Source: Bacteroidia bacterium (GTDB taxonomy: Bacteria; Bacteroidota; Bacteroidia; Bacteroidales; GWF2-35-48). Taken from it: a DNA stretch of 58,079 bases. The DNA lies in assembly GCA_016212695.1 (NCBI GenBank), contig JACREX010000117.1, positions 1 through 58,079 on the forward strand, given 5' to 3'. Positions 33,503 to 33,894 of the stretch are shown piece by piece (the first letter of the stretch is position 1; each line of letters begins with the position of its first letter). The translations under genes were made by a program, and so were the position numbers. The notes below the pieces were generated by a model. The model was not told where the DNA came from, ran no database searches, and saw only the letters and a program-made list of their open reading frames with translations.

Positions 33503-33553
33503 CTACGGGACGAATGCGAGGCGGAGACCTATGTTGTTGTTGCGGTTCGAACC
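33503..33553 (-). repeat. Shortened DGR template repeat (TR) remnant
   Basis: ggttcgAACcgcAACAACAACataggtctccgcctcgcattcgtcccgtag; both ends match the 3' end of the 34801-36960 gene. Confidence 0.75.
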
Positions 33554-33894
33554 CTGCGATACTTGCCCTAATTGAGAAATTATTTTTTTTCTAAACCCTA
33601 TTGCCTCGGCATGTTGCGTAAATGATACCAAGGGTAATACATGTTGCTGATATTCCTTTTGAGACAATGAACCATCTTTTAACTTATGCTCAAAAAGTAT
33701 AATTTTATTTATGAATCTTCTTTTACTTCGTTGTGCCATAATACCATATCGTCCATATAGCGGACATAAGCCGGAATTTCTAATTTTTCTTTAACAAAAT
33801 GATCGGCAACCGATAAATAATGATTGGCAAAATACTGACTTGTGAGATTTCCGATAGGTTGCAACATATTGTCTCCGTAGGAGACAAGCGATAA
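33503..33894 (-). pseudogene. DGR-type reverse transcriptase remnant with internal deletion and frameshift, reading into template-repeat-like sequence
   Basis: Frame 1 from 33894: LSLVSYGDNMLQPIGNLTSQYFANHYLSVADHFVKEKLEIPAYVRYMDDMVLWHNEVKEDS*; frame 2 (33739-33503): MAQRSKRRFINKIILFEHKLKDGSLSQKEYQQHVLPLVSFTQHAEAIGFRKKIISQLGQVSQGSNRNNNIGLRLAFVP*. Confidence 0.85.

Follow-up and report, generated by a model that had tools for sequence, protein, structure and literature searches.

Layout of the locus

The window, by which we mean the whole 58,079-nt stretch of DNA that was analysed (contig JACREX010000117.1 of a Bacteroidia bacterium), carries on its minus strand two fragments of the reverse transcriptase (RT) of a diversity-generating retroelement (DGR), within positions 33581-33891 and lying in ORFs at 33709-33867 and 33503-33739. 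Around them are a template repeat (TR) remnant, its downstream spacer RNA, an open target gene ending in a variable repeat (VR), fragments of a second DGR, and REP-associated transposase (RAYT) and REP elements (Table 1). Tandem repeats with units of 21/42 nt and of 8 nt (AAATTGCT) flank this decayed zone, at 34105-34309 and 32369-32498.

Table 1. Features in and around the decayed zone, in window coordinates and in the reading direction of the minus strand
Feature	Position	Strand	Evidence
Target gene, 726 aa, signal-like N-terminus, PEGA repeats, C-terminal FGE-sulfatase (predicted C-type-lectin-fold) domain, intact ORF	34801..36981	-	Pfam PEGA 6e-51, FGE-sulfatase 3e-50
VR, 132 nt, 3' end of target gene	34801..34932	-	pairs with TR 33503-33553
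RAYT (Y1/IS200-like transposase) C-terminal remnant, where the HRDC gene and RT N-terminus are expected	33894..34019	-	40% identity to the window's other RAYT, E 9e-5; C24 copy has HHRKKTFKEEYIELLKEHG
19-nt palindrome TTGTCTCCTACGGAGACAA at transposase/RT junction	33869..33887		sequence
RT fragment A, QPIGNLTSQ...YVRYMDDMVLW	33718..33867	-	74-78% identity to L071; 8ub7 E 3e-5
RT fragment B, C-terminal region AQRSKRRF...FRKKI, in another frame than A	33581..33739	-	53-55% identity to L074, L096
TR remnant, 51 nt, 81-nt (27-codon) internal deletion relative to VR	33503..33553	-	junction near 33542/33543 within AACCGC
Template spacer RNA downstream of TR: GCTCA..GCCGGATAGC..GAACAGAT, then terminal hairpin, T-run	33378..33504	-	alignment of 17 intact loci
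Spacer terminal hairpin: 11-bp stem closing UUAGUA...GAA internal loop, then U-run	33378..33424	-	model R1; covariation
Second DGR target fragment, Fib_succ_major-type VR, 3' half missing	33181..33351	-	10/13 differences to C116 TR at template A, p 0.0017
REP-type palindrome CCCCGTGCTGAAGCACGGGG, truncates the Fib_succ VR fragment	33162..33181		same palindrome on contigs C139, C258
RAYT ORF, with an internal deletion when compared with further copies in the genome	32766..33110	-	Pfam Y1_Tnp 2e-14; other copies split at residues 22-24
Second DGR RT (Fib_succ type), C-terminal fragment	32583..32711	-	86% over 43 aa to C116 RT residues 351-393

Identity of the RT remnant

A sequence-only reading of this DNA had proposed that two minus-strand frames were the remains of a DGR RT that had lost its N-terminal half and the stretch between YMDD and AQRSKRR. 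Both frames exist and are not products of chance, given their matches to the intact 334-aa RT at locus L074, in a genome of the same order: residues 181-227 of this RT correspond to window 33858-33718 (64% over 47 aa, E 6e-15) and residues 273-325 to 33739-33581 (53% over 53 aa, E 6e-14), and a comparison of L074 with the whole window gave no third match above noise. Since L074 residues 1-180 (~180 N-terminal residues) and 228-272 (~45 residues after YMDD) are without a counterpart, both of the proposed losses are real, while the C-terminus is kept nearly to its end. The second ORF had been taken in full for the C-terminal region of the RT, which proved correct for 33581-33739 but not for the tail, SNRNNNIGLRLAFVP, which is the TR at 33503-33553; the TR therefore sits inside the reported span, where it had been translated as protein.

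That the remnant is a DGR RT, as had been suggested from its motifs, is supported by four lines of evidence: its best structural match, its place in a phylogeny, an adjoining TR/VR pair with A-bias, and the spacer hairpin of its clade. The motifs PIGNLTSQ and YMDD fit the [IL]GN..SQ and Y.DD of the DGR lineage, and fragment A matches RTs in 12 other genomes of the order (best E 8e-21). Against the PDB, the best match of the window piece was 8ub7 at E 3e-5, an entry named 'Reverse transcriptase' which we take to be the BPP-1 DGR RT of the RT-Avd-RNA structures, and the next was another RT at E 0.31; the intact relative at L071 matched the same entry at E 1e-39, with E values of 2e-13 for the leading group II RT and 4e-10 for a retron-type RT. 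The 55-aa piece alone had no match in Pfam. In an IQ-TREE phylogeny the window pieces, with 28% of columns filled, fell within a 21-row RT clade with support of 100/100, whose members bear TR and VR, and the genome's own two other RTs (contigs C116 and C249) fell outside it. That the remnant came instead from a retron, a group II intron or a defence (UG/DRT) RT is highly improbable, as the weak scores of the 55-aa piece alone against UG/DRT profiles (best 5e-7) have to be set against a PHROG RT family match of 6e-18, a PDB search led by 8ub7 with the sole other RT marginal, and intact relatives that own a TR and VR and stay far under the curated cut-offs (L071 and L074 scored 95-96 bits against 300 for group II, 57-60 against 235 for retron St85 and 52-57 against 200 for Drt3a).

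Target gene, VR and TR

Several hallmarks of a DGR are found beside the RT pieces: a TR adjoining the RT, as a remnant; a VR that differs from it mainly at template adenines; and a target with a predicted C-type-lectin fold, judged from the FGE-sulfatase domain match. Over the 51 comparable nucleotides, seven of the nine TR/VR differences are at TR adenines (hypergeometric p=2e-4), including all six in the variable core (6/6, p 9e-4); two of the three differences after the core are not at A, and all three are at third codon positions of the target. The intact TRs of relatives contain repeated AA(C/T)CG(C/T)AACAAC units, which makes a short-repeat deletion a plausible origin of the 81-nt gap.

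Intact relatives and the extent of decay

The intact loci of the clade share a layout of FGE-type target (VR), HRDC gene, RT, TR and spacer RNA. In L094, L074 and L096 the VR precedes the RT and the TR follows it, the repeats being 132-141 nt long and 85-87% identical, with the differences within them chiefly at template A, and at L093 FGE target genes adjoin the RT. Of the 29 loci examined, 26 have an HRDC gene on the upstream side of the RT (Pfam HRDC 2e-14 in L071). No HRDC-like stretch was found within the window, and its absence, set against its presence in the relatives, is read as a loss, the locus being a degenerate DGR and not a working one. Mutagenic retrohoming requires a complete RT, and the window RT has lost ~180 N-terminal and ~45 internal residues. 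The sequence-only verdict that the RT looks dead by two deletions is supported for both the losses and the probable death of the enzyme, yet it understated the damage, the TR deletion and the loss of the HRDC gene having gone unseen.

We conclude with high confidence that a complete FGE-target, HRDC-type DGR once stood at this locus and survives as a relic, its cassette having suffered no fewer than three internal losses. Firmly established are its parts and deletions, its A-bias and its clade, and we infer activity in the lineage in the past and inactivity now. An intact cassette of target, HRDC gene, RT, TR and spacer RNA would have made error-bearing copies of the TR RNA, the errors falling at adenines, and transferred them to the VR of the PEGA-FGE protein of 726 aa, a protein of surface type. 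Of this cassette the RT has lost its N-terminal ~180 and post-YMDD ~45 residues, the TR its 81 nt, and the HRDC gene is missing, with a transposase remnant now lying at the 5' break of the RT; the target gene is still an open frame, and its last VR is probably frozen.

Mobile elements and a second DGR

A second DGR, of Fib_succ type, is reduced in the same zone to a VR fragment and an RT tail, with a RAYT between them. The fragment at 33181-33351 was also considered as a TR, and this was rejected: it differs from the TR on contig C116 mostly at adenines of that TR, as a VR does, and so was read as a VR. A genome of the same genus (G001) is colinear with the window over 24812-32297, at 81-85% nucleotide identity, and diverges at the end of a sensor kinase gene (G001 locus L142). 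Because colinearity ends right at the end of this gene, the decayed zone, which is absent from the matching place in that genome, is regarded as an accessory region; from ~39.3 kb onward the window maps to different G001 contigs. The RAYTs may have caused the breaks, as we propose, or may have come later.

Is an intact system present?

The search of the rest of the genome that had been advised (259 contigs, 90.5% complete) was run and found no intact copy of the window RT, although one may lie on a missing contig. A protein search of the genome found no full RT of the window clade, and a DNA search found no leftover contig with a full FGE-type TR, the deleted TR of the window being the only one. 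The RTs on contigs C116 and C249 as intact versions of the window RT were ruled out by the tree.

There is a very small chance that the deletions are assembly artefacts and that the DGR is intact in the living population. An assembly in 259 contigs is fragmented, and the palindromes and tandem repeats of the zone can mislead assemblers, but the internal RT junction and the TR junction both lie away from long repeats, the neighbouring VR fragment, RAYT and second RT are each truncated independently, and the full TR or full clade RT that an artefact might have left on another contig was sought in vain by the DNA and protein searches. Smaller still is the chance that the target is diversified in trans by another RT, for which the full-length one on C116 would be the candidate. 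That contig has both an RT and a TR, and other VRs fit this TR with A-bias, but its TR is of Fib_succ type, unlike the FGE VR, its RT and that of the window are in different clades, and its Avd-like frame is cut to 42 aa. As no TR for the FGE target was found save the deleted one, the C116 system is not expected to serve it. With the RT, TR and HRDC gene of the relic broken or lost and no intact RT copy found in the assembly, the VR of its target is probably frozen.

The other DGR parts of this genome are of Fib_succ type. The C116 locus (L061, 8539-9994, minus strand) comprises a full-length RT, into which a palindromic CCCTGAGCGGAGTCGAAGGG repeat has been inserted without breaking the frame, and a TR; a PDDEXK_3 gene adjoins, and the Avd-like frame is truncated. 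Contig C249 (L062, 10334-11654) carries a TR and an RT of the C116 type, the RT being frameshifted and cut short at its C-terminus, and upstream there is a short Avd-like frame. On contig C139 (L063, 7723-9051) a Fib_succ gene has a VR that departs from the C116 TR at 31 sites, 24 of which are template adenines (p 9e-7), from which it follows that the C116 system probably worked in trans formerly; just upstream of this gene are a RAYT and an array of REP palindromes. Contig C227 (L064, 1270-2988) has three consecutive Fib_succ VR-like stretches, two in one large gene and one an orphan fragment.

A conserved RNA downstream of the TR

Downstream of the TR, 17 intact loci (L071, L074, L076, L093, L094, L096, L098, L103, L105-L109, L111, L113, L116 and L129) share three elements: a hairpin with a GGAT loop, a strand resembling GAACAGATTATT, and a terminal hairpin followed by a U-run. 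In L096, L106, L109 and L113 the GGAT-loop hairpin is repeated within the terminal hairpin. The hairpin pairs covary: 89.5% of cells are paired, against 56.6 when shuffled; 74 cells are changed on both sides, against 21.6 (s.d. 4.0); and the covariation score is 0.94 against 0.26, a signal that a shifted pairing destroys. A covariance model of the hairpin built without the window (R1) matched the window at 33378-33424 on the minus strand (E 0.0017), its sole match in the 58 kb, and the locus thus has the structured spacer of a DGR. Run on the genome, R1 gave no match, the window's own copy included, among the 150 of 1131 candidates scored.

Full-length matches to the Rfam family RF02921 (RT-14) were also obtained on the window spacer, at 27.9 bits, and on the spacers of L112, L111, L071 and L129, at 35.7-41.5 bits. 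The terminal hairpin with UUAGUA/GAA is shared with this family, but the scores of the window and its four relatives are all under the curated gathering score of 48.1 bits, and at that threshold none of them is a member. Among 399 genomes of the phylum RT-14 had one weak match, at a DGR-type RT locus, where it overlaps the TR and where R1 finds nothing; this match is given no weight. The RT-14 name was not met in the literature searched, and the family may have been recognised earlier as a DGR spacer. Recruiting the RT complex and priming cDNA synthesis are both tasks of the spacer in BPP-1 (PMC12875486), and by analogy a spacer of the window type may perform them too. We lean, if by a little, towards the view that the post-TR sequence of HRDC-type DGRs is a conserved RNA, made up of the GGAT-loop hairpin, the GAACAGATTATT strand, the bulged-G-like UUAGUA/GAA terminal hairpin and a terminator, that it is the RT-recruiting, cDNA-priming spacer of the clade, and that RT-14 is a member of it.

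Relation to known systems and significance

HRDC accessories have been described for the DGRs of Treponema denticola, as have isolates with target genes but without RT or TR (PMC4891356), and transposon-degraded DGR loci are known from Thiohalocapsa PB-PSB1 (PMC10907252). With the HRDC-accessory, C-type-lectin DGRs of the T. denticola type (PMC4891356) the window locus shares an FGE/C-type-lectin target, an A-biased TR/VR pair and, in its relatives, HRDC, and it has the RT clade and post-TR spacer RNA in common with the intact Bacteroidales relatives as well; it differs from both in its internally deleted RT and TR and its missing HRDC gene. The Bacteroidales relatives themselves have the TR after the RT, whereas in T. 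denticola the accessory gene lies between TR and RT (PMC4891356). As in Thiohalocapsa PB-PSB1 (PMC10907252), DGR components are disrupted beside mobile elements, although the phylum is another, the neighbours in the window are RAYT/REP, and the decay includes a deletion within the TR. As in the RT- and TR-less T. denticola isolates (PMC4891356), a DGR target has been orphaned, although in the window recognisable fragments of RT, TR and spacer are still in place. As each of these phenomena is published, decay by mobile elements among them, the window locus belongs to a known kind and is a clear but fairly ordinary fossil.

What it offers is a DGR caught mid-decay with its target kept open, and the varied losses gathered at a single locus, at the RT 5' end, in the RT middle and inside the TR, show by example how a system for hypermutation comes to be shut down. 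In such a state gene finders miss the RT and TR, and the target resembles an ordinary FGE/PEGA gene. Of more interest than the fossil itself is its by-product, the covarying template-spacer hairpin of HRDC-type DGRs. If our view of this RNA is true, the conserved spacer of the window has outlived both its RT and its TR. The conserved hairpin is a practical handle for finding DGR templates, dead ones included, where no intact RT is left, and it offers studies of cDNA priming in HRDC-type DGRs a concrete RNA element to work on.
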